A stretch of DNA of 64,000 nucleotides, from NCBI RefSeq assembly GCF_944327175.1, contig NZ_CALVGT010000002.1, forward strand, positions 24,352 through 88,351. Direction: 5' to 3'. The stretch comes from an uncultured Lactobacillus sp. Its GTDB lineage: Bacteria > Bacillota > Bacilli > Lactobacillales > Lactobacillaceae. How positions within the stretch are numbered: the first letter of the stretch is position 1; each line of letters begins with the position of its first letter. The notes beneath the pieces are model-generated. The model was given only the letters and a program-made list of their open reading frames with translations, was not told where the DNA came from and searched no databases. The position numbers and the translations under genes are program-made. Of this stretch, positions 15,200 through 28,826 are shown piece after piece.

Positions 15200-15308
15200 G
15201 CGGACAAAATCCTGTAATTAAAACGTAACACAGCTTCCCTTGATTTTAGTAAATATTATGGCTAACATAATTTGTAGTTATCTTTATGATGAGAAAGGGA
15301 AAAACAGT

Positions 15309-16430
15309 TTGAATTTTAAAGACTTCTTTTTGAAAAAATCCGCGAAAACTGCCGGCAAGCTGGCCTTAGCCGCCAGCCTCCTGCTTCCAGCTTTGGCGCC
15401 AGCTACGGTCCAGGCGGAAGCGACCAAGAGCGACGTCAACCGGGTAATGAGGGACAACCACCTGGCCGGGTCAGTTCTTTTAGTCCAAAACGGCAGCGTC
15501 AAGACCGTCAACTACGGCTATGCCTGGTTTGGCCGGCGGATAAAGAACGGGTCTTATAACGTGACTTATCCAGCTGCTTCCCTGCAAAAGGTGGTAACCG
15601 GAGCCATGCTGGTACAGATTATGAACGAAAAGAATCATACCAAGCAGCAATTCAGCCAGTACACCAAGATCTCCCGCTGGTACCCCAAGCTGAAGAATGC
15701 CCGCTACGTGACGGTCGGCAACCTCTTGACTCACACTAGCGGCTACCGGAAGGTTGGCTCAGAAAGCAACCAGAATCTGTCGGAAAACAAGGCCATCAAC
15801 TGGGTGACCCAGAAGATCAACGGCAGCTGGCAGTATCAGATTGGCAGCTTCAACTACAGCGACACTAACTACATTTTGCTGGCCGGCATCATCCGCAAAT
15901 TGACCGGCCGCTCCTATGCCTACAACTTTAAACACCGGATCGTTCATCCGCTGGGGTTGGCCCACACCAGCCTCAGACATGACATTCCTTGGACCCGGAG
16001 CCAGGCAGTATCATACGCTTATCTATGGCAGAGAAAGTACCAAAGACCGGTCTCCCTGCCTAAGTCCGTGGCTTCCCAGATCCCAGGCGCCGGCAACATG
16101 TGCACCACGCCAGTTGAATATTACGAGATCTTGCTGGCCCTGCAGAACGGGGCAATTTTGAACCAAAGCGACTTCAATTACCTGACTCACCTCAAGGCCA
16201 GAAAGACCACCTATAGCGGCGGTATGTACATGAAGCGGGGCGGCAAGGTCAAGTCTGCCTTTGGCGCGATTAGGGGTGAGCACTATGGGAATTATGTCCA
16301 GCTGACGGCGGACAACAGAAACGGGATCATCATGTTCGTAAATGAGCGCAGCCAGACTAAGCAGCAGCTCAAGGGCCTGGCCTTTGGCCTCTTGCAGAAG
16401 ATCCAGCCGGGAACCTTTAGTTTGAATTAG
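15309..16430 (+). CDS. Secreted serine hydrolase of the beta-lactamase/D-Ala-D-Ala peptidase fold
   Basis: About 373 residues from the TTG at 15309, which has GAAAGGG 8 bp upstream; the frame itself is open from 15240. A signal peptide occupies about 1-36 (ASLLLPALAPATVQA). The active-site SxxK motif is S91-L-Q-K94 in YPAASLQK. The second motif reads Y183-S-D where class C enzymes usually have YxN, and the third position reads H325-Y-G. It belongs to the class C beta-lactamase-like family and probably acts on cell-wall peptides. It is the first of a tandem pair. Confidence 0.8.
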   Translation: MNFKDFFLKKSAKTAGKLALAASLLLPALAPATVQAEATKSDVNRVMRDNHLAGSVLLVQNGSVKTVNYGYAWFGRRIKNGSYNVTYPAASLQKVVTGAMLVQIMNEKNHTKQQFSQYTKISRWYPKLKNARYVTVGNLLTHTSGYRKVGSESNQNLSENKAINWVTQKINGSWQYQIGSFNYSDTNYILLAGIIRKLTGRSYAYNFKHRIVHPLGLAHTSLRHDIPWTRSQAVSYAYLWQRKYQRPVSLPKSVASQIPGAGNMCTTPVEYYEILLALQNGAILNQSDFNYLTHLKARKTTYSGGMYMKRGGKVKSAFGAIRGEHYGNYVQLTADNRNGIIMFVNERSQTKQQLKGLAFGLLQKIQPGTFSLN

Positions 16431-16492
16431 TGAGTGATTTTTTTTATTTTTTAAAAAATAATAATTTTTCGCCCTTTTCCCCTGAATGGCCT

Positions 16493-16498
16493 TATAAT
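16493..16498 (+). promoter_or_regulatory. Putative -10 of the second serine hydrolase gene
   Basis: A perfect TATAAT lies in the short spacer after the first hydrolase gene. With a start near 16505 the mRNA would place the GGGAGG site (16515-16520) in a short leader, which supports the TTG start at 16532. Confidence 0.55.
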
Positions 16499-16531
16499 GT
16501 TCATATGTATCCAAGGGAGGAAAGACCACTG

Positions 16532-17662
16532 TTGTTTAAAAAGGGAAGAAAAATCATCACAGCTCTGCTGGTCGCGGCAGTATGTGCCGCTATCTGCGCT
16601 TCAGCCTGGCCGGAAGAAACGGCCCCTGATCTGGTAACGGCGGCCGATATGCATGTTTTTGTCGAGAAGCTTTTTAAGAAGAAGCATGTGACCGGCAGCG
16701 TGGCTATAGTGCAAAAAGGGCATGTCCAGGTCGTCAACTATGGCTTAGCTAATGCTAAGCGGAAGGTCAAGAATGGGGCCAGCCAGGTTGTCTACCCGGC
16801 CGCTTCCATGCAAAAGGAAGTTACCGGGGCCATGATCATGCAGCTGATGGAAGAAAAGAAGGGGAGCTCAAGTGCTTTTAGTCAAAACACGAAGATCTCC
16901 CGCTGGTACCCGGCCTTGCGGAATGCCAAGAAAATCAGCGTGGGCAACTTGCTTTCTCACACGTCTGGCTTGCAGATTCCAGAAGTAGAAGTTGACCGCC
17001 ACATCAACTATAGTGAAGACCAGGCAGTAAACTGGATTGTGAACCGGGCCAACCAATTGCCGCAGGACAAGGTGGGGAGCTACCACTACAGCGACGTCAA
17101 CTATGTTTTGCTGGCAGGCATCATCAAGAAGGTGAGCCATAAGTCATATGCCTGGAATTTTAAGAAGCGGGTGGTCCAGCGGCTGGGCCTCAAGTCAACT
17201 TATGTAAGCAGCCAGCTGCCTAAGAATAAGATGCTGGCCGTATCTTACACCTATAAGCATGGCAAGAACTACCAGCAGGCGGCAACTTTGGAAAAGACAC
17301 GGTTGTCTCAGCTGGTTGGGGCCGGGAACATGTTGACGACAGCCAGCGACTACTATCTTATCCAAGAAGCTTTGGGAACAGGGCAGTTCCTGTCGCCGAG
17401 CGCCTTTCACAAGCTGACCCACCTCAAGAGCAAGATCAATCAATATAGCGGCGGGGTTTACCTCAAGAAGGGGGAAAAGGTCAAGCTGGCCTACGGGGCA
17501 ATTGGCGGCGCTCACTATGCTGCTTACTTCCAGCTGACGGCTGACAACAAGAACGGGATTATCCTGCTTCTCAACCAGCGTAGCTTTGGCGAAAACAAGG
17601 TTAAGGACGTTGGCTATCAGATCTTGAAAGAGATCATGTTTGATACTTTCTCTAAGATCTAA
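16532..17662 (+). CDS. Second secreted serine hydrolase (tandem paralogue)
   Basis: About 376 residues from TTG 16532, chosen because GGGAGG lies 11 bp upstream; the ATG at 16505 has no site and falls at the likely transcription start. A hydrophobic leader (ITALLVAAVCAAICASA) suggests export. Motifs parallel the upstream gene: SxxK at S92-M-Q-K95 (YPAASMQK), Y186-S-D188, and H328-Y-A in place of the third motif. The two proteins share long stretches such as KISRWYP and YAAYFQLTADNKNG-type endings, so they arose by duplication. The substrate is unknown. Confidence 0.8.
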   Translation: MFKKGRKIITALLVAAVCAAICASAWPEETAPDLVTAADMHVFVEKLFKKKHVTGSVAIVQKGHVQVVNYGLANAKRKVKNGASQVVYPAASMQKEVTGAMIMQLMEEKKGSSSAFSQNTKISRWYPALRNAKKISVGNLLSHTSGLQIPEVEVDRHINYSEDQAVNWIVNRANQLPQDKVGSYHYSDVNYVLLAGIIKKVSHKSYAWNFKKRVVQRLGLKSTYVSSQLPKNKMLAVSYTYKHGKNYQQAATLEKTRLSQLVGAGNMLTTASDYYLIQEALGTGQFLSPSAFHKLTHLKSKINQYSGGVYLKKGEKVKLAYGAIGGAHYAAYFQLTADNKNGIILLLNQRSFGENKVKDVGYQILKEIMFDTFSKI

Positions 17663-19300: not shown

Positions 19301-20488
19301 TTACCGGAAGCTGGACTTAGTCACGTATTGGCCGACACCAACGATGTAGTACTTCTTACCTTTGATTGATACGGCACCGCCATAGGTCTGCTTTTGGCTG
19401 TATTTCTTCAAGACATACTTCTTGTAGCGAACCGCCTTGCCATGTGATTTCTTGTAGATATAGGCATTCTTTTTCAAGGTCCGGCTTGTCCCATCAACGT
19501 TGGAAGCAGAGATGAAGGAGTTGTAGCCGGTTTGGTAGTACTTCTTATTCTTAATAGTCGTCCGGCCAAAAGTCAGGATCTTCTTACCTTCAGCGACAGA
19601 AGAAGTGGTCTTCTTCAAGTTCTTGCTGTAAACGGCAGAGCTGTGCATGACCTTAATGTAGCGGCCGTCAGCGCTCAAGGCGCTGATGTACTGGTCAGTG
19701 CCCAGCTTGTAGTACTTTTCCCCGCCTAAGATGGCATAGGCGTAGGCGTAGACCTTCTTGCCCTTCTTATAGCTAGTCCTGGTCTTTTCCAGGCTCTGGG
19801 TGTAAACGGTGGCCGCGTTTTTCAAAGTGATGTAGCGGCCATCAATGTCGGAAGACTGAACATACTTGCCGGAAGCCTTGGAGATCTTGTAGTATTTGAC
19901 GTTTCCCCGGGTCAAAGTGCCGTAAGTGGTGACGGTCTTGCCAGCCTTGAGGGCCTTGCCCTTGGTCTTATTGCCGTTTCTGTCGTAAACGGCGGCGGTC
20001 CGCTTGACGACTTTCTTAACCGTAGCGGAAGTCTCAGTAACTGTCTCATAGGCTGAAGCCGGCAGGTCGCCAAAGGTGATGTTGCAGTATGATTGATCAC
20101 CATTGATGTTAATATCCGCGTTTTGTAGGCCGTTCTTGTAGGCAGATCCATCAAAGGTTAACGTCTTCTTGTCACTGATTGCTACTTCATCATTTACTTG
20201 GACATAGTTCAAGCCCGCGTCATCAATGTCATCTACATCAATCGAGATGGACGAAATTTTATGTTTCTTGATCGTTACCGTGGCTGATGGAAAAAAGTTA
20301 AAAGGAATATCAATATTGTTGCCTAGATTCTCTACGGTGACCATTACCGTGTAGCTGCCGTCCTTGTATTCCTTGCTGGTCTTGGCCTTAGTCGCAGCTG
20401 CCTGGATGGGAGCTGCCTGAGGAATTACGGACAAGCTGGCCGTTGCCAGTGACAGGGCGGTTACGATGGATTTGCTTAACTTTTTCAT
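19301..20488 (-). CDS. SLAP-domain surface protein with signal peptide
   Basis: A 395-residue exported protein. The start is the ATG at 20486-20488 (MKKLSKSIVTALSLATASLS), because AGGAGG lies 12 bp upstream, although the frame extends further. After the signal peptide (about 1-32) comes a domain of about 110 residues, then repeated basic SLAP-type units such as GEKYYKLG, GRYITLKN and KKYYIVGVGQYV that bind wall polymers. In lactobacilli SLAP domains attach proteins non-covalently to the surface. A promoter lies at 20544-20572. The next gene upstream is a paralogue. Confidence 0.88.
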   Translation of the reverse strand: MKKLSKSIVTALSLATASLSVIPQAAPIQAAATKAKTSKEYKDGSYTVMVTVENLGNNIDIPFNFFPSATVTIKKHKISSISIDVDDIDDAGLNYVQVNDEVAISDKKTLTFDGSAYKNGLQNADININGDQSYCNITFGDLPASAYETVTETSATVKKVVKRTAAVYDRNGNKTKGKALKAGKTVTTYGTLTRGNVKYYKISKASGKYVQSSDIDGRYITLKNAATVYTQSLEKTRTSYKKGKKVYAYAYAILGGEKYYKLGTDQYISALSADGRYIKVMHSSAVYSKNLKKTTSSVAEGKKILTFGRTTIKNKKYYQTGYNSFISASNVDGTSRTLKKNAYIYKKSHGKAVRYKKYVLKKYSQKQTYGGAVSIKGKKYYIVGVGQYVTKSSFR

Positions 20489-20543
20489 TCTTGAATTTTG
20501 CCTCCTGGGACTAGTCAAAGTTTCTTTTTTGAGATTTTATTTT

Positions 20544-20572
20544 ATTATCGCCCGATTTAATTTAAAAAACAA
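20544..20572 (-). promoter_or_regulatory. Promoter of the intact SLAP gene
   Basis: On the minus strand TTGTTT (20567-20572), 17 bp, GATAAT (20544-20549). The same layout recurs at 21732-21760. The -35 lies directly against the T run of the upstream gene's terminator. Confidence 0.75.
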
Positions 20573-20605
20573 TCAAAAAAGATTCTGCCCAAGCAGAATC
20601 TTTCC
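20573..20605 (-). terminator. Terminator of the second SLAP gene
   Basis: An 8-9 bp stem (GATTCTGC with GCAGAATC) followed on the minus strand by six T residues. It ends the 20622-21725 transcript and abuts the next promoter. Confidence 0.85.
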
Positions 20606-20621
20606 TGGTTTATCCTCAGTT

Positions 20622-21725
20622 TTAGCGGAAGTTAGACTTAACCACGTATTGGCCAACTGAGATGATGTAGTACTTCTTGCCCTTGATTGATACAGCGCTA
20701 CCGTAAGTCTTGCGGTGACTGTTCTTCTTCAAGACGTACTTCTTGTAGCGGACCGCCTTGCCCTTGGACTTCTTGTAGATGTAGGCATTCTTCTTCAAAG
20801 TCCGGGTCGTCCCATCAACGTTGGAAGCAACGATGAACTTATTTTGGCCAACTTGGTAGTACTTCTTCTTGTTGCTCAAAGTGGTCCGGCCGAAGGTCAA
20901 GACCTTCTTGCCTTCGCTGTATGATGAGCCGGTCTTCTTCAAGTCCTTGCTGTAAACAACCGCGCCGTGCTTGACAGTGATGTAACGGCCCTTAGCGTTC
21001 AAGGCCTTGATGTACTTGTTAGTGCCGAGCTTATAGTACTTTTCCCCGCCCAAGATAGCGTAGGCATAAGCATAAACCTTCTTGCCCTTCTTGTAGCTAG
21101 TCTTGGTCTTCTTCAAGTCCTGGGTGTAAACGGCAGCCGCGTTCTTCAAGGTGATGTAGCGGCCGTCAACGTTAGAAGCCTTGATGTACTTATTTCCAGT
21201 CTTGGAAACCTTGTAGTACTTAGTAGTGCCCCGGGTCAAGGTGCCGTAAGTAGTGACAGTCTTGCCGGCCTTGATTGACTTGTACTTGGTCTTGGCGCCG
21301 TCACGGTTGTAAATAGCTGAGTTCTTCTGCACCTTCTTCTTAACAACTGCTGAAGTTTCAGTGACAGTTACAAAGGCTGAACTTGGTAAAGTGCTGAAGA
21401 CAACGTCAGCACTGAACTTGCTGCCATTGACCGTGAAAGTGGCGGTCTTAGTGCTGGTTTGGTAAGCGCCGGCAGCAAAGGTGTAGGTTACGCTGCCATC
21501 TTTGCCGGTGCTGGTCTTAGCCTTGGAGCCGTTGATGGTCAAGTCACTGTAGACCGGGCTGTCCTTGGCCAGGGTGAAGGACACTGAAGAAATCTTCTTG
21601 CTCTTGATCGTGACCTTAGCAGCGGCTGCCGTCAAAAAGCTGGCTTCAGTTGAGTAAACCTGGCTGCCGCTGTCATAGAAGCTGGCGGCAACAGTGTAGC
21701 TGCCAGCTTTATATTCTTTGCACAC
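20622..21725 (-). pseudogene. SLAP-domain paralogue lacking start region and signal peptide
   Basis: The body resembles the neighbouring SLAP gene: an N-terminal domain, then repeats with GRYITLKNAA, KKVYAYAYAILGGEKYYKLG and KKYYIISVGQYVVKSNFR. The frame, however, begins abruptly at residues matching about position 40 of the intact paralogue (EYKAGSYTV against EYKDGSYTV). No ribosome site, ATG or signal peptide precedes it. The first possible start is GTG 21725 or later codons. The promoter is retained 7 bases upstream, so a deletion removed the leader and the export signal. Any product could not be exported by Sec. Confidence 0.75.
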
Positions 21726-21800: not shown

Positions 21801-21829
21801 TTGAGCGGGCGGGTAAATGGTGCTAAAAT
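21801..21829 (+). promoter_or_regulatory. Promoter of the zinc-ribbon-like gene
   Basis: TTGAGC (21801-21806), 17 bp, TAAAAT (21824-21829), about 70 bp before the start codon. Confidence 0.65.
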
Positions 21830-21906
21830 CAAATTAGAAAGTGAATATTAAGATAAGAATTCAGCGATTTGCTGTTTTACTTCTAAAAGGGTAAGGGGGC
21901 ATGGCA

Positions 21907-22185
21907 ATGACTAAGAGTCAAGCCAATAAGGCTTACCGGCGCGCCCGCCGCAGCCGGCTGCTGGTTTGTCCCAGCGGCAAGCGGGCCTTTAAGACAAAGT
22001 TCGATGCCGATCTGTTTCTTTATAAAGAAGAAGTGACCGTTCACCTTCGCGAAATCAACCATGAGCACTGGCGGCTAATGCCGATTCGGGCTTACCGGTG
22101 TCCTTATTGCAAGAATTATCATGTAACCTCAATGCCGCTGGAGCGCTATGAGCAGCTGCACGGCGAAGAACGGGAGCGGACCTGA
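21907..22185 (+). CDS. Small basic protein with zinc-ribbon-like motif
   Basis: About 92 residues. It starts at ATG 21907, which is 8 bp from the GGGGG site; ATG 21901 is also possible but too close. The N-terminus is rich in Arg and Lys (NKAYRRARRSR). A cysteine lies near residue 20 (LLVCPSGK), and YRCPYCKNYHVTS gives CxxC with a following histidine, a probable metal knuckle. It probably binds nucleic acid. A terminator overlaps its stop codon, and the family B polymerase gene follows on the same strand. The function is unknown. Confidence 0.65.
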   Translation: MTKSQANKAYRRARRSRLLVCPSGKRAFKTKFDADLFLYKEEVTVHLREINHEHWRLMPIRAYRCPYCKNYHVTSMPLERYEQLHGEERERT

Positions 22186-22199
22186 TGGCCCGCTTTTTT
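22175..22199 (+). terminator. Terminator overlapping the stop codon of the zinc-ribbon-like gene
   Basis: A stem AGCGGACC with GGCCCGCT (one mismatch) and a TGAT loop that contains the stop codon, followed by a T run. Confidence 0.7.
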
Positions 22200-22208
22200 C
22201 TTGCTTTT

Positions 22209-22241: not shown

Positions 22242-25109
22242 ATGAGCCGACTAAATTCTTATTTCTACGATATCGAATCTTTGACCAACGCCTTTACTCT
22301 GTCCTGCTACCGGCCAGACGACCAGCGGGTTGACATCTATTACCTAGTTGATGATCCGGCCTTAAACGAAGGTGACAGCCTGGACTTTAAGAAGGCTGCT
22401 GCCCAGCGGATCCGGGAGAAGAACCAGAACTTTACGGGGGATATCTACTACTACAATCTCTGCTCAAGTGCAGCTTCCGCCCGTCTGGCCCAGACCTTTG
22501 GGGTCTCAGATGCCCAATACGTCAATGATCCCCAAGCCCCGTCCTCTTTTCCAGGCCAGTTCCGCCCGGTCTGCGACACTGACGCCGGCTACCAGGAAGA
22601 AGAAGCGCCCTACCTAATGGGCTACAATTCCAGCAACTACGATTTGACCATGCTGGCCTATTACTTTACCCAGGCCTGGCAGCCTGGTGAAAGTGGCAAG
22701 CGGGACCGCTTTTCAGCCGTGACGGCCAAGGAGATGCGGGACTTTAACGATGAACTCTTCAGCCGCTATATCGGCAACATGCGCCTGCGCCTTTGGCAGG
22801 ACAAGACCATGGGCTTAGTTGCCAAAAATTTCCAGATGTCCGGCCGCCATATTGACGTCGCCCAGCTCAATGAGCGGCAAAGACGGGTCGGCCTCAAGCG
22901 CCTTTTGGGGATGCTGGGCTGGCAGATTCTGGAAAGTGACAAATTAAAGCCCGGCCAGGACTACTTGACTAGTCCCGAAGAACTGGCTGATCTCATTGCC
23001 TATAATGTCTCTGACGTGGTTAACTTAAAGGAGCTTTTCTGCCATCCTTACTACCAGGGGCAGTTTATTTTGAAAAAGGGTCTCTTGGGTCAGTACCCGG
23101 ACTTGATCTACCAAGAAGACGGGGACAGCTACCAGGCGAAAATTGGGTCAGCCTTTGTCAGAAAAGACCGCTTGACCATTGACTCGACTTCTGCCAATTT
23201 TGCCCGCAGGACCATCTGCCCATATGGCCGCTTAAAAGACGACCGGGCCGTTTCATTTTTGTATCCAGCCGCTAGCGTGGCGGAAAAAACAGGCGAAAAG
23301 CAGAGAGATATCCTAGAAGAAAGCCGGGACTTTTTCTACAAGCTCTTTGAAGATGAAAAATTGCGTAAAAAATTTGACCGGGTTTATGACTACTACAAGC
23401 AGTTTGCCGGCAAGAACTTCAATCCTTCAAAGGAATACCAGGAAGATTACGGGGACCAGGCCCTGCCGGTCAGCGACCTAAGTGAGGTCGAGAACGAAGA
23501 TACCAACCTTTTCTACTACCAAAAAAACGGTCAGCCATCGACTTGCTACATCACTTTCTCCGTTGGCGGCCTGCATGGGTCAGAGTACAACAAAGAGCTT
23601 TACTTAAAAGACTATTCCCTTTGGGAGAAAAAGCAGGCTGACCTGGCTTATGTGCAAAAGCTTTACCCAGATCCTTTGGACCTGCGTAAGGCGAGGGAGG
23701 TCACCCTGCCAGACGGGCGGACGGAAAAGTACCAGACTTTCTTGACGGCTAAAGCAACGATCAAGTTGATGGAGCAGACGGATCCGGCTGACCGGGGGCA
23801 GTTTTGGCGGGACTTTAGTCAGGATGAACCGTCTGTTTTCAAAAAGCAGGGGAGCCGGGTCAGACTGGATGACCGCTATGCCTTTACCTCAAGCGACCTG
23901 ACCAACCACGAGGACTTTACCTCCTACTATCCAAACATGCTCCGGCGCCTCAATGCTTTTTACAATGACCGCTTAGGCGAAGACCGGTATACGGCGATCT
24001 TTGAAAGAAAGCAGGAATTGGACAAAAAGCGGACTGATCCCCAATATAGCAGCGAAGAGCGGCGGATGTTCAATATCGAAAGAGAAGGGACCAAGCTGAT
24101 CTTAAACTCAGCTACCGGGGCTGCTGATCCTAGAGAAGGGCGGGTGCCCTCTTCGATTAGAATGAACAACCGGATCCGGTCTATGCGGATTATTGGTCAG
24201 CTCTTCACTTATATGATCGGCCAGGCCCAGACTTATGCCGGAGCCCGGATCGTGTCAACCAACACTGATGGTCTTTACTCGGTCTTAGATGCTGACTTAA
24301 ACCGGCAGATCCTGGCTAAAGAAGCCGCTGAAATCGGGGTGGAGATTGTCCCAGAAGAACTTTACCTGGTTTCTAAAGACTCCAACAACCGCCTGGAAGC
24401 CAGCCCAGATTTGACCAAGGTTCTGTCAGCTTCAGGCAGCCTGGCCTGCCGGAAGGACACCAGCCCGACCAAGTCCCTGGCCCACCCGGCTATCATCGAC
24501 TGGGCCCTCAGCCGCTACCTGCTGGAAAAAAGGACAGACCTGGCAGCGCCCTTTGACCGGGACCTGGGCCGGCAGATCCTGGCGGAAGCTGAGGAAGCCT
24601 TCCCAGACCCGGCCCACCGGCTCAGAATGTTCCAAAACGTCCTCTCAGCCAACCACAGCAAGGAGCGGGCTAACTGCATTTTCGGCCGGGGGGATGCCGG
24701 CCAGCTCTTAATCTTGCAGCGCTACAACCGGGTCTTTATCTATCAAGACGGCCTGCCGAAGACGGTCCACCTTTATTCCGCCGCGGCTAAAAAGCTGACC
24801 CCGGCCATGCTGAACAAGCGCAAGAGAAGCGGGGAAGCCGCCATCCAGCATGACCAAGAAGCCCTGGCGGTTCTTAAGGCTAACGGCCTGGGCAACTTGG
24901 CAAAAGGCCGGGAGGCTACGGTCCAGAAAATTCCTAATTTGTCACCTGACTGGTCCATGCACGTGGAAAACCGGGCCGTCAACTTACTTGCGCTTGACGA
25001 GCAGGAAGCAATTTTGAATTCGCTTGACTATGACAAGTACCTGGACCTGGTGGCTAGCGCTTATGAAAAGAACTGGCGGAATTTGACTACATCCGGGCCA
25101 GTCTTATAA
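22242..25109 (+). CDS. Family B DNA polymerase with 3'-5' exonuclease motifs, not in a visible phage
   Basis: A 955-residue protein not usual in lactobacillar chromosomes. Exonuclease motifs: Exo I FYDIES (D10, E12), Exo II GYNSSNYD (N129-D134), Exo III YNVSD (Y254-D258). Polymerase motifs: a GGLHG pre-motif (442-446), motif A DFTSYYP (D558), motif B KLILNSATG (K618-G626) and motif C NTDG (D676), with a later KDSNNR. Motif C has Asn in place of the first Asp. Only about 60 residues separate A from B and 58 separate B from C, leaving little room for protein-priming insertions. GGAGG precedes the ATG. A phage or mobile-element origin is likely, but no integrase or terminal protein is nearby. 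Confidence 0.85.
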   Translation: MSRLNSYFYDIESLTNAFTLSCYRPDDQRVDIYYLVDDPALNEGDSLDFKKAAAQRIREKNQNFTGDIYYYNLCSSAASARLAQTFGVSDAQYVNDPQAPSSFPGQFRPVCDTDAGYQEEEAPYLMGYNSSNYDLTMLAYYFTQAWQPGESGKRDRFSAVTAKEMRDFNDELFSRYIGNMRLRLWQDKTMGLVAKNFQMSGRHIDVAQLNERQRRVGLKRLLGMLGWQILESDKLKPGQDYLTSPEELADLIAYNVSDVVNLKELFCHPYYQGQFILKKGLLGQYPDLIYQEDGDSYQAKIGSAFVRKDRLTIDSTSANFARRTICPYGRLKDDRAVSFLYPAASVAEKTGEKQRDILEESRDFFYKLFEDEKLRKKFDRVYDYYKQFAGKNFNPSKEYQEDYGDQALPVSDLSEVENEDTNLFYYQKNGQPSTCYITFSVGGLHGSEYNKELYLKDYSLWEKKQADLAYVQKLYPDPLDLRKAREVTLPDGRTEKYQTFLTAKATIKLMEQTDPADRGQFWRDFSQDEPSVFKKQGSRVRLDDRYAFTSSDLTNHEDFTSYYPNMLRRLNAFYNDRLGEDRYTAIFERKQELDKKRTDPQYSSEERRMFNIEREGTKLILNSATGAADPREGRVPSSIRMNNRIRSMRIIGQLFTYMIGQAQTYAGARIVSTNTDGLYSVLDADLNRQILAKEAAEIGVEIVPEELYLVSKDSNNRLEASPDLTKVLSASGSLACRKDTSPTKSLAHPAIIDWALSRYLLEKRTDLAAPFDRDLGRQILAEAEEAFPDPAHRLRMFQNVLSANHSKERANCIFGRGDAGQLLILQRYNRVFIYQDGLPKTVHLYSAAAKKLTPAMLNKRKRSGEAAIQHDQEALAVLKANGLGNLAKGREATVQKIPNLSPDWSMHVENRAVNLLALDEQEAILNSLDYDKYLDLVASAYEKNWRNLTTSGPVL

Positions 25110-25199: not shown

Positions 25200-25730
25200 A
25201 TGAGCAAACAAATCATGGATGAAGCGGGGATCCGCCGGGCTTTGACCAGAATGAGCTACGAAATCGTGGAAAGAAACCAGGGGACGGAAAACCTGGTCTT
25301 AATCGGGATCAAGACCCGGGGCTGGTACCTGGCCCAGAGAATCGGCGACCGTCTGGCCAAGATTGAAGGCAGCCAGCTGCCAGTCTTGTCTTTGGACATC
25401 TCCGCCTACCGGGACGACCTCAGCCGAGAAGAAAAGGCCAAGGCCATTGCCAGCTTTGACACTTCCTTTGACTTGACCGGCAAGACGGTCATCTTGGTTG
25501 ACGACGTCCTTTATACCGGCCGGACCATCCGGGCAGCCCTTGACGCGATCATGGACCAGGGCCGGCCAGCCAAGATTGCCTTGTCTGTTTTGATCGACCG
25601 GGGCCACCGGGAACTGCCGATCCGGCCGGACTTCATCGGCAAGAACATCCCAACCGCGGCCAGCGAAGACGTCCAGGTCCAGGTCAGCGAAATCGACGGA
25701 GAAGACGCCGTGAAGATCAGCGAGGCATAA
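25200..25730 (+). CDS. pyrR: Bifunctional pyrimidine regulator PyrR / uracil phosphoribosyltransferase
   Basis: A 176-residue PyrR. The PRPP-binding motif [13 protein letters not shown] (97-109) and the family ending are present. PyrR binds UMP and pyr-operon leader RNA to promote termination. Here it is not linked to pyrimidine biosynthesis genes; a -10 TATAAT near 25180 and a GGAGAGAAG site drive it. The next gene begins 1 bp after its stop codon, so it is cotranscribed with an RNA methyltransferase and tadA. Confidence 0.93.
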
Positions 25731-25731
25731 G

Positions 25732-26334
25732 ATGGCTGAACAATACTTTACTGAAAATCCCACGGTTGACCATGACGAGCACCATGTCAACTACCACCTC
25801 AACGGTATTAATTTGAACCTGACCACGGATGCCGGCGTTTTTTCCAAAAACCGGGTCGACTACGGCAGCGGGGTCTTGATTGAGCAGATGCTGGAGCAGG
25901 ATTTGCCAGGCGGCAATATTCTGGATGTCGGCTGCGGCTATGGCCCGATCGGTCTTTTCGCTGCTAAAAAGTGGCCAGACCGCCAGGTCGACATGGTTGA
26001 CGTCAACGAACGGGCCATGGACCTGGCCAGAAGAAACGCAGCGGCCAATGGGGCAGGCAACGTCAATATTTTTGCCTCAGACCGCTATCAAGAAGTTTCC
26101 GGCCAATATGCCATGATCGTGACCAACCCGCCTATCCGGGCCGGCAAGGCCATCTGGTCCAGCATTTTGGCGAAAGCCAAGGACCACTTAACTGACGGCG
26201 GGATTCTGCTAGTCGTCATCCAGAAAAAGCAGGGAGCACCGAGCGCGAAGAAGCTGATGGCCGCCAGCCTGGGCAACTGCGAAATCTTGACCCGGGACAA
26301 GGGCTACTACATTTTAAAGAGCGTGAAGAAATAA
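25732..26334 (+). CDS. RsmC-like class I methyltransferase
   Basis: A 200-residue single-domain S-adenosylmethionine methyltransferase. Motif I is DVGCGYGPIG (about 63-72), and the catalytic NPPI-type motif is TNPPIRAGK, as in N2-guanine methyltransferases of the RsmC/RsmD group. It probably modifies 16S rRNA. ATG 25732 lies 1 bp after the pyrR stop, and tadA starts on its stop codon. Confidence 0.9.
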   Translation: MAEQYFTENPTVDHDEHHVNYHLNGINLNLTTDAGVFSKNRVDYGSGVLIEQMLEQDLPGGNILDVGCGYGPIGLFAAKKWPDRQVDMVDVNERAMDLARRNAAANGAGNVNIFASDRYQEVSGQYAMIVTNPPIRAGKAIWSSILAKAKDHLTDGGILLVVIQKKQGAPSAKKLMAASLGNCEILTRDKGYYILKSVKK

Positions 26335-26843
26335 TGTATTCAAGCGAAGAAAAAAAGACCTACATGGAGGCCGCCTTTGCGGAAGCGGAGAAGGCCCGCC
26401 GGCAAGACGAGGTTCCCATCGGAGCCGTTGTCGTGGGCCCAGACGGGCAGATCATCGGCCGGGGCTACAACCGGCGGGAGCTGGATGAAGACGGGACGGC
26501 CCATGCCGAAATCCTGGCCATTAAGGAGGCCTGCCAAAAGCTTGACTCCTGGCGTTTGATCGACTGCAGCCTGTTTGTTACCCTGGAGCCTTGCGCTATG
26601 TGCGCCGGGGCCATTATCAACTCCCGGATCAAGGAAGTCTACTTCGCGGCCATGGACCCCAAAGCTGGCGCCGCTGGCAGCGTGGTCGACCTCTTCAGCG
26701 TGGAAAAATTCAACCACCATCCCAAGGTCATCCGGGGCCTTTACAAAGAGCAAGGGGCCCAGCTTTTGAAAGATTTCTTCCGGGAAATCCGCCGTAAGCA
26801 AAAATCAGCAAAAAAAGCCCAGGAAAATTGCCAAAAGGATTAG
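26334..26843 (+). CDS. tadA: tRNA adenosine(34) deaminase
   Basis: A 169-residue zinc deaminase that converts A34 to inosine in tRNA-Arg. The metal and proton-relay motif H57-A-E59 and P86-C87-A-M-C90 are present. The start overlaps the stop of the methyltransferase gene (TAATG). The C-terminal lysine-rich tail is normal. The SRP RNA gene follows. Confidence 0.96.
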   Translation: MYSSEEKKTYMEAAFAEAEKARRQDEVPIGAVVVGPDGQIIGRGYNRRELDEDGTAHAEILAIKEACQKLDSWRLIDCSLFVTLEPCAMCAGAIINSRIKEVYFAAMDPKAGAAGSVVDLFSVEKFNHHPKVIRGLYKEQGAQLLKDFFREIRRKQKSAKKAQENCQKD

Positions 26844-26856
26844 TTTAGGTTACAAT
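26828..26856 (+). promoter_or_regulatory. Promoter of the SRP RNA gene
   Basis: TTGCCA (26828-26833), 17 bp, TACAAT (26851-26856). It begins inside the end of tadA and fires just before the RNA. Confidence 0.7.
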
Positions 26857-26861
26857 ATTGG

Positions 26862-26938
26862 TTGGGCAATGTTCGACCTCCGAAGCGTGTCAGGACCGGA
26901 AGGTAGCAGCACTAAGGTCGCTTGGGCATGTGCCCTTT
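26862..26938 (+). ncRNA. ffs: Signal recognition particle RNA, small bacterial type
   Basis: The conserved domain IV core is readable: GCGTGTCAGGACCGGAAGGT then AGCAGCACTAAG, flanked by complementary arms TGGGCA and TGCCC. It binds Ffh and targets nascent membrane proteins to FtsY. Its position between tadA and dnaX is the classical Firmicute location. Ends are approximate. Confidence 0.9.
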
Positions 26939-26952
26939 ATTTAGCAATTAAC

Positions 26953-26986
26953 AGGCTCTTAGCTCTTCGGGGCTAGGAGCTTTTTC
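26953..26986 (+). terminator. Terminator after the SRP RNA gene
   Basis: A stem GGCTCTTAGCTC with GGGCTAGGAGC and a TTCG loop, followed by five T residues, immediately before dnaX. Confidence 0.88.
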
Positions 26987-27002
26987 ATTACGGGGAGAAT
27001 GT

Positions 27003-28826
27003 ATGGCTTATCAAGCTTTGTATCGCAAATGGCGCCCGCGCACCTTTGATGATGTGGTCGGACAGGAAGCCATTACCGATACCCTCAAGAATTCACTTAT
27101 CCGGGGCAAGGTCTCGCATGCCTTCCTTTTTGCCGGCCCGCGGGGGACGGGGAAGACCTCCTGCGCCAAGATTTTTGCCAAGGCCTTGAACTGTTTAAAC
27201 CTGCAAGAGGGCGAACCTTGCAACGAGTGCAGCAACTGCCTGGCCGCCGACCAGGGGGCAATGCCGGACATCATCGAAATGGACGCGGCCTCAAACAACA
27301 GCGTTGACGAAATCCGCGACCTTTTAGACAAGGTTCACTACGCTCCAACTGAAGGCAAGTACAAGGTTTACATCATCGACGAAGTCCACATGCTGTCGAT
27401 TTCAGCCTTCAATGCCCTTTTGAAGACTTTGGAAGAACCGCCGGCCAGCGTCGTCTTTATTTTGGCGACGACTGAACTGCAGAAGGTGCCGGCCACTATC
27501 ATTTCCAGAACCCAGCGCTACAACTTCAAGCGCTTCTCAAATGAGGCCATGGTCAAGCGGATGGAATACATCCTGGGCCAGGAAGGGGTCGAATACGAGG
27601 ACAAGGCCTTAAAGGTCATCGCCCAAGTCGCTGACGGGGGGATGCGGGATGCCTTGAGCATTTTGGACCAGCTCCTTTCTTTTGAAAAAAGCAGTGTCCG
27701 TTACGAGGACGCCCTGGAAGTCACCGGTTTCGCCGCCCAGGAGCAAGTCGAAAAGCTCCTTTTGGCCCTCTTAAACGGGGACAGCCAGACGGCCCTGGAT
27801 TTGGCTAAGTCTGCCATCCAGGACGGGGCCAGCGCCCAAAACATTTTAAATGAAATTATCAGCTTGACCGTCCAGGCCATGCTTTTTACCAAAACAGGGC
27901 AGGGGGAATTCCTGACGGATGACTTTGCCCAGGAAATTGCCCAGCAAAGCCCGGACCGCTTCAGCCAGATCATTGACCAGGCTAATGACGCCTTGGGCAG
28001 CCTCCGCTTTACCAACCAGCAGCAGATTCCCTTAGAAGTCTTTTTAGTCCAGGCTGGCCAAGAGCGGCAAAACAGCCAGGCGGGCCCGCAAGTTGCTTCT
28101 GCGGCCAGCAACCCGGCCTTAGAGCGGCAGGTCAAGGCCTTGAAAGAACAAGTCCACCAGCTGACCCAGCAGGTTCAGCAGCTGAGTCAGCGGCCAAGCC
28201 AGGCCTTCAGCCCCCGCCATGTCTTCCAGCTCAACCAGCAGCTGTACACGCAAAAGGGCGGGGCAACCGAAGTGGCCCAGCAGGCAGCGGAAAAGCAGCA
28301 GCAAGCTGAAAGCCTGCAGGCTGAAATCACCAGCAGCCAAGAAGAGATCTACGCGGTCTTAAGCCAGGCCACCAAGCCCGGCTTAGCTGAGGCCCGCAAC
28401 CTTTGGGACCGGGACTTGCCAAGCATGCTGGAAGAGCCGGCCAAGACGGTCTTGGGCTTCCTGCAGCCGATCGCGGCCAGCGACCGGGCACTTCTTTTGT
28501 CCAGCCAGTCCCGGGCCTGGCAGCTGGCCACAAATCCTCAGGAATTTTTAGCAACTCTCAAAGCTGACCTGGAGCAATTGACCAAGGAGAGCTGGACCAT
28601 CGCTATCGTTGACGAAAAGGCCTGGCCAAAGATCCGCCAGGACTTCATCAAGGAACACGCCAGTCAGCTCCGATCTAAGGCCCAGCCAGCAGAAGCCCAG
28701 CCGGCAGAAGCAGCAGCTCCTGAGCCGCCTTTGCCGGACCAGGCGCCGACGGAAGAAGCGGCAGATGACGCGATTGTGACCAAGGCAGAAGAGCTTTTCG
28801 GCCCTTTGGCCCAGGTTAAGGACTAA
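27003..28826 (+). CDS. dnaX: DNA polymerase III subunit gamma/tau
   Basis: A 607-residue clamp-loader ATPase. Walker A is GPRGTGKT (45-52), zinc cysteines are C64, C73, C76 and C79, and DEVHML is the Walker B. The C-terminal third is Gln/Ala-rich with coiled-coil-like stretches typical of tau. No slippery frameshift heptamer in the right phase is visible, so only the long form is expected. ybaB and recR follow. Confidence 0.96.
   Translation: MAYQALYRKWRPRTFDDVVGQEAITDTLKNSLIRGKVSHAFLFAGPRGTGKTSCAKIFAKALNCLNLQEGEPCNECSNCLAADQGAMPDIIEMDAASNNSVDEIRDLLDKVHYAPTEGKYKVYIIDEVHMLSISAFNALLKTLEEPPASVVFILATTELQKVPATIISRTQRYNFKRFSNEAMVKRMEYILGQEGVEYEDKALKVIAQVADGGMRDALSILDQLLSFEKSSVRYEDALEVTGFAAQEQVEKLLLALLNGDSQTALDLAKSAIQDGASAQNILNEIISLTVQAMLFTKTGQGEFLTDDFAQEIAQQSPDRFSQIIDQANDALGSLRFTNQQQIPLEVFLVQAGQERQNSQAGPQVASAASNPALERQVKALKEQVHQLTQQVQQLSQRPSQAFSPRHVFQLNQQLYTQKGGATEVAQQAAEKQQQAESLQAEITSSQEEIYAVLSQATKPGLAEARNLWDRDLPSMLEEPAKTVLGFLQPIAASDRALLLSSQSRAWQLATNPQEFLATLKADLEQLTKESWTIAIVDEKAWPKIRQDFIKEHASQLRSKAQPAEAQPAEAAAPEPPLPDQAPTEEAADDAIVTKAEELFGPLAQVKD

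Follow-up and report, generated by a model that had tools for sequence, protein, structure and literature searches.

The DNA polymerases otherwise used by lactobacilli are PolC, DnaE and Pol I, and the locus described here raises the question of how a family B enzyme (PolB) came to be encoded on a Lactobacillus chromosome and what it does there. The gene forms a single intact ATG frame of 955 codons in the window, by which is meant the whole 64,000-nucleotide stretch of DNA that was analysed, and a search of the genome to which the window belongs found one match. That the frame carries exonuclease and polymerase motifs had been proposed in a sequence-only reading of the same DNA, and all of the residues named there (D10/E12, N129, D134, Y254, D258, D558, K618 and N674-T675-D676) proved correct.

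Motifs, spacing and fold of the polymerase

Residue counts and spacings refer to an alignment (A3) of 42 rows, the query included.

22242..25109, + strand: PolB gene, 955-aa family B DNA polymerase (ORF, phrog_1252, AlphaFold2, Foldseek)
22269..22277, + strand: Exo I, D10-I-E12 (D10 in 41/42 rows, E12 in 39/42)
22626..22643, + strand: Exo II, N129 to D134 (N129 in 41/42, D134 in 39/42)
23001..23015, + strand: Exo III, Y254 to D258 (Y254 in 39/42, D258 in 41/42)
23025..23909, + strand: segment between Exo III and motif A, residues 262-556 (enlarged relative to the aligned phage PolBs)
23565..23579, + strand: GGLHG pre-motif, residues 442-446 (G442, G443, H445 and G446 invariant, 42/42)
23907..23933, + strand: motif A, HEDFTSYYP (D558 in 42/42)
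24093..24128, + strand: motif B, KLILNSATGAAD (K618 in 42/42)
24255..24281, + strand: motif C, STNTDGLYS (N674 and D676 in 42/42; NTD in five phage PolBs)
24372..24392, + strand: SKDSNNR motif (K712 in 42/42)

Assignment to family B, as claimed in the earlier reading, was upheld by the PHROG profile phrog_1252 ('DNA polymerase'; E 6.5e-28, best stretch residues 5-506), which also matches all eight members of alignment A1, by the acidic residues of Exo I-III (D10, E12, D134 and D258) together with motifs A, B and C, and by an AlphaFold2 model with a confident B-family fold (pLDDT 91.4). The profile match, this fold and the presence of D558, K618 and D676 in all 41 other rows of A3 place the ORF far beyond chance, and it is a lactobacillus polymerase for which no Pfam or NCBIfam polymerase model is listed at E<=1. 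The earlier reading had allowed that structure prediction might reveal no palm fold; the PolB fold is present by both AlphaFold2 and Foldseek, the 50 PDB matches listed by the latter being, by title, B-family polymerases or engineered forms. A viral fold search with the model placed siphophage polymerases on top.

The Asn noted earlier in place of the usual first Asp of motif C (N674) is found in 42/42 rows, and the spacings given as about 180, 115, 60 and 58 residues measure 184 (Exo III to the GG pre-motif), 116 (GG to motif A), 60 (A to B) and 58 (B to C). What did not survive is the view that these features mark out this one protein. NTDG occurs in 42/42 rows, motif C reads NTDG or NTDA in five aligned phage PolBs, which also retain G442, G443 and H445, the A to B distance is 60 in 33/42 rows (full range 59-74) and the B to C distance is 55-58 in 42/42, so that both the lack of the first Asp and the spacing characterise a group. 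The phages concerned are Rudgehvirus jaberico, Efquatrovirus LM99, Achromobacter Axy18, Klebsiella KpV79 and Pseudomonas Psp6; they were found by way of a relative of the query, and the phrog_1252 match is one of the query itself. An invariant NTDG with one motif C Asp raises the question of how the active site works. The SKDSNNR motif may sit about where other PolBs carry the KxY motif, and the exonuclease residues are all intact in the five lactobacillus rows.

Protein-primed synthesis of the phi29 type is disfavoured. In phi29 about 134 residues separate motifs A and B (TPR1), whereas 60 lie between D558 and K618, leaving no room for TPR1 (the earlier reading had likewise spoken of little room) and speaking, by spacing, against protein priming; motifs B and C are 58 residues apart versus about 73 in phi29 (TPR2). 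The enlarged segment between exonuclease and palm is common to PolB and its mobile relatives. Modelled separately, residues 262-556 gave a confident structure (pLDDT 89.4) for which a Foldseek search against the PDB returned no row at E<=0.001, and the segment probably contacts DNA or a partner.

The chromosomal locus and its descent

The flanking features of PolB are the following, the names pyrR, methyltransferase, tadA and dnaX being those that we presume from reading the sequence.

21801..21829, + strand: promoter-like site with TG before the -10, upstream of p94 (consensus scan)
21901..22185, + strand: p94, 94-aa Cys-rich (zinc-ribbon-like) protein (phrog_3424, function unknown, E 2.7e-8)
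22166..22202, + strand: terminator-like hairpin and T run over the p94 stop (dG -16.1, z -3.24, 0/200 shuffles as good)
25200..25730, + strand: pyrR-like gene 3' of PolB (at this site only in species with PolB)
25732..28826, + strand: conserved flank of methyltransferase, tadA-like gene, small SRP RNA (26856-26949; Rfam RF00169) and dnaX-like gene

A B-family enzyme had been called unexpected in lactobacilli, and PolB is indeed rare, being found in 5 of 75 genomes of the genus: that of the window and those matched to L. delbrueckii DSM 20074, L. nasalidis, L. equicursoris and a record titled Faecalicatena absiana. The gene order of the last (L014) is that of Lactobacillus, and the record corresponds to a genome assigned to the genus of the window; its title looks wrong. 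Strong matches to p94 are confined to the same five of the 75 genomes, with one further weak match in G045, and the sole strong pyrR match in the five is the one at the PolB locus, G022 and G036 giving weak matches only. The order p94-PolB-pyrR-methyltransferase-tadA-dnaX is found in all four genomes with a readable flank (that of the window, G001, G012 and the L. delbrueckii contig L011); the contig of G032, which also carries PolB, stops within pyrR. At the dnaX site of the sister genomes G036 and G022, p94, PolB and pyrR are absent and a ribosomal-protein-like ORF and small ORFs are followed by methyltransferase, tadA and dnaX; the three genes are also absent from this site in G004 and G060. 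Between its ribosomal-protein genes and p94, the genome of the window carries about 8 kb of further genes not present at that place in the sisters. The difference is thus larger than p94-PolB, and no clean insertion of the pair is visible.

Among the listed larger ORFs of the window no phage-like or mobility genes were recognised, these ORFs looking by eye like housekeeping genes, which bears out the earlier placement of PolB outside any recognisable phage. Many of the genes downstream are, by eye, presumably for repair or replication (recR, mutS, mutL, ruvAB and a dinB-like gene). Carriage of PolB as prophage or element cargo was not supported, there being no adjoining phage or mobility genes (by eye) and the site being the same in the four readable genomes. 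Elsewhere in the window, two adjacent similar surface-protein-like ORFs (19301-21725) lie on the minus strand, divergent from p94, and the corresponding region of the L. delbrueckii locus L011 shows short ORFs only; two tandem similar ORFs at 15240-17662 resemble serine hydrolases or beta-lactamases (names by eye).

The consensus promoter scan found 6 sites against 3.4 expected by chance, and the -10 part of the site upstream of p94 is largely conserved across five aligned species. The hairpin over the p94 stop was not listed in the consensus scan; by eye, its sequence is identical in G011 and G032, another possible hairpin is present in G012 and the situation in G001 is unclear. This hairpin and a -10-like sequence between the two genes suggest that p94 and PolB may form no simple operon. 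No SOS-like box was found near PolB with a pattern that may not fit lactobacilli.

Nei-Gojobori estimates of omega for PolB are 0.058-0.178 over 10 pairs, the far pairs being saturated in dS, and 0.058-0.074 in the three near pairs (dS 0.27-0.93). By the same method the values are 0.07-0.18 for p94 (9/10 pairs, one saturated), 0.08-0.13 for pyrR, 0.06-0.16 for the methyltransferase, 0.08-0.09 for tadA and 0.16-0.26 for dnaX. PolB is under purifying selection, with omega like that of the flanking genes. Its codon usage is host-like, not foreign: GC3 is 0.65 versus 0.66-0.77 in eight flanking genes, and the codon distance to the pooled flank reference is 0.18 versus 0.16-0.28 for the reference genes themselves. 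A methyltransferase tree covering 30 of the 75 genomes groups the four PolB-bearing species that it includes (89/90), and joins them with G036 and G022 (100/99). In the PolB tree, which has four of the phages as outgroup on very long branches, the five lactobacilli join at 100/100 and stand next to Bacillota copies, a Muribaculaceae-labelled one and an IMG/VR one at 93/91 (not starred), the deep branches being long. The simplest reading is one gain of PolB before the species that carry it split, followed by vertical descent; loss in the sister species is a possible alternative.

Relatives on plasmids and contigs

Three plasmid relatives, all annotated as hypothetical, were found by tblastn in Streptomyces (NBC_01454 plasmid), Gordonia (pGKT2) and Rhodococcus (pGS01). 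A scan of the genome collection, alignment-based and limited by its two peptide patterns, yielded 47 PolB loci, which by record title comprise 32 from Actinomycetota, 4 matching lactobacillus genomes and 11 from elsewhere (Clostridia, Bacilli, Bacillaceae, Paenibacillus and one MAG labelled Muribaculaceae). Close homologues restricted to active prophages of one gene order would have told against the earlier reading; those found are not so restricted.

In 48 non-lactobacillus PolB loci, which are not all independent (several nearly duplicate one another, and contig ends truncate some), the genes found are a primase-helicase (40), DHH (37), SNF2 (37), VRR-NUC (34), a CPBP protease (33) and an Lsr2-like gene (28). 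None of these module genes is present in the lactobacillus PolB flanks, which reach 10 kb at most, and a single primase query, run without a positive control, found nothing in the genome of the window. Pfam confirmed DHH/RecJ, the D5-type primase-helicase (DUF5906, Pox_D5, D5_N) and SNF2 on module examples and gave no match at E<=0.01 for the example VRR-NUC; the names VRR-NUC and Lsr2 are taken from plasmid annotation and CPBP is our own reading. In the actinobacterial loci L018-L034, L036, L037 and L043-L054, the recurrent set is Lsr2-like, DHH/RecJ, CPBP protease, D5-type primase-helicase, PolB, VRR-NUC and SNF2 helicase, complete in many loci and partial elsewhere. As a lead only, pGKT2 is reported to carry homologues of alpA and alpC from prophage CGP3 (PMC4446434).

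Individual relatives depart from the common form. Exonuclease residues are altered in L042:5196-8324 and L057:762-3899 (Paenibacillus) and in L056:9884-12730 (Lachnospiraceae), which may be without proofreading; the PolB of L017:9992-13666, at 1224 aa, is extended at its C terminus by about 240 residues; and in L052:9920-13224 and L055:9845-13116 the frame is broken into two ORFs. A lone PolB of the same family lies among housekeeping-looking neighbours (by eye) in an Eggerthellaceae MAG (L038:9055-12123), which is 1 of 138 genomes in the family draw.

Origin, probable role and comparison with known systems

The best explanation, which we hold with as much doubt as conviction, is that PolB is a domesticated, mobile-element-derived, proofreading-type accessory host polymerase. 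The earlier suggestion of a domesticated or mobile-element polymerase thus stands as the best reading, while nothing points to the distinct priming mode proposed with it. PolB was apparently captured long ago and retained in L. delbrueckii and its nearest relatives at a fixed chromosomal spot. A single capture is envisaged, from a replication module of plasmid- or phage-like kind, with transfer presumably running from element to lactobacilli; the primase-helicase, nuclease and SNF2 partners of PolB would have been lost or never brought along. To our knowledge, few cases have been described in which a host took over a replicative polymerase of the phage or plasmid type and, without the partners of that enzyme, retained it under purifying selection; here such a case would be found in a food bacterium.

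An accessory role, most likely accessory DNA synthesis, is proposed by exclusion and from the location. PolB would extend existing 3' ends in gap filling, repair or fork restart, a repair role being a possible one, and would proofread through its own 3'-5' exonuclease. D558 and D676 would form the metal-binding pair, with N674 replacing the usual first Asp. The enzyme would work on host-made primers, given that its flanks are without the primase-helicase that accompanies most relatives and that the uncontrolled query detected none in the genome, and p94, conserved together with PolB, may be a partner that perhaps assists it. Pol I (PF00476) and Y-family (PF00817) matches are present in all five genomes with PolB, so that PolB adds to these polymerases and does not replace them. 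In a more particular version, toward which we are slightly more sceptical than inclined, a mobile-element replicase whose large segment has no recognised fold would have entered an ancestor of the L. delbrueckii clade in a single capture and become, together with p94, a host polymerase resident beside clamp-loader and recombination genes, a further replicase next to PolC, DnaE and Pol I.

PolB or p94 might instead act against incoming phages or plasmids, competing with or poisoning replication that uses a related enzyme. The occurrence of relatives in mobile replication modules, the absence of PolB's own module partners from its flanks and the match of p94 to a PHROG family of unknown function would fit such a factor, but all catalytic residues are kept, unlike in a mere decoy, and 50,697 phage records gave no match at E<=1e-5; we consider it unlikely. 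PolB might also be the visible part of a cryptic element that persists through its own mobility. This would suit relatives that occur on plasmids and with replication modules, yet the same site in 4/4 readable genomes, the host-like codon usage and the failure to recognise element genes by eye leave this highly improbable.

The single motif C Asp invites two further comparisons. In a survey by Kazlauskas and colleagues (PMC7544198), the first motif C Asp is absent in archaeal B2, piPolB and PolB_SITDG, crAss-like PolBs are strongly divergent in motif C, and B2/G2 PolBs with one such Asp are described as translesion enzymes. A translesion polymerase like archaeal B2 is quite improbable here, because the same text describes B2/G2 as lacking Exo III and having no conserved Exo I, whereas all three exonuclease motifs are intact in PolB, N674 is common to phage PolBs and the genome of the window already has two Y-family matches. 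Least credible of all is a primer-independent polymerase of the piPolB kind, likened by description: the absence of the first Asp is shared with other groups and so is not diagnostic, and relatives of PolB mostly travel with a D5-type primase-helicase.

As a domesticated accessory enzyme, PolB finds a functional analogue in E. coli Pol II (G1), an accessory bacterial PolB with proofreading. Against membership of that clade, Exo II reads GYNS here versus GWN there, and PolB also has no Pfam PolB match. PolB_SITDG of cyanobacteria and algae (Kazlauskas 2020) likewise lacks the first motif C Asp and has Gly after the second, but is described as having a hydrophobic residue where all 42 rows have Asn. 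The NTD-type PolBs of siphophages and crAss-like phages share the NTD of motif C (the next residue being G in four and A in one), the GG motif with H445, D558 and K618; they are 18-20% identical to the query, have a shorter stretch from Exo III to motif A and are phage genes, whereas PolB is chromosomal. Closer are the actinobacterial plasmid and contig PolBs (Gordonia pGKT2, Rhodococcus pGS01, Streptomyces NBC_01454 plasmid, Arthrobacter, Nocardiopsis and others), which are 35-46% identical with the same motifs and similar spacing, but have a mostly longer stretch from GG to motif A and mostly lie with primase-helicase, VRR-NUC, SNF2, DHH, CPBP and Lsr2-like genes that lactobacillus PolB is without. 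The same motifs are found in unnamed PolBs on Clostridia, Bacilli and Muribaculaceae-labelled MAG contigs and on the IMG/VR contigs L009 and L010, and the nearest relatives outside the genus are L015 (51% identity), L016 (49%), L017 (47%), L009 (46%) and L010 (44%). Unlike the lactobacillus locus, L009, L010 and L017 have a primase-helicase module and L016 part of one, whereas L015, the nearest, has none of the module genes searched, which counts against capture from a module. Lactobacillus PolB is a member of a distinct NTDG subfamily that is poorly described and largely mobile.
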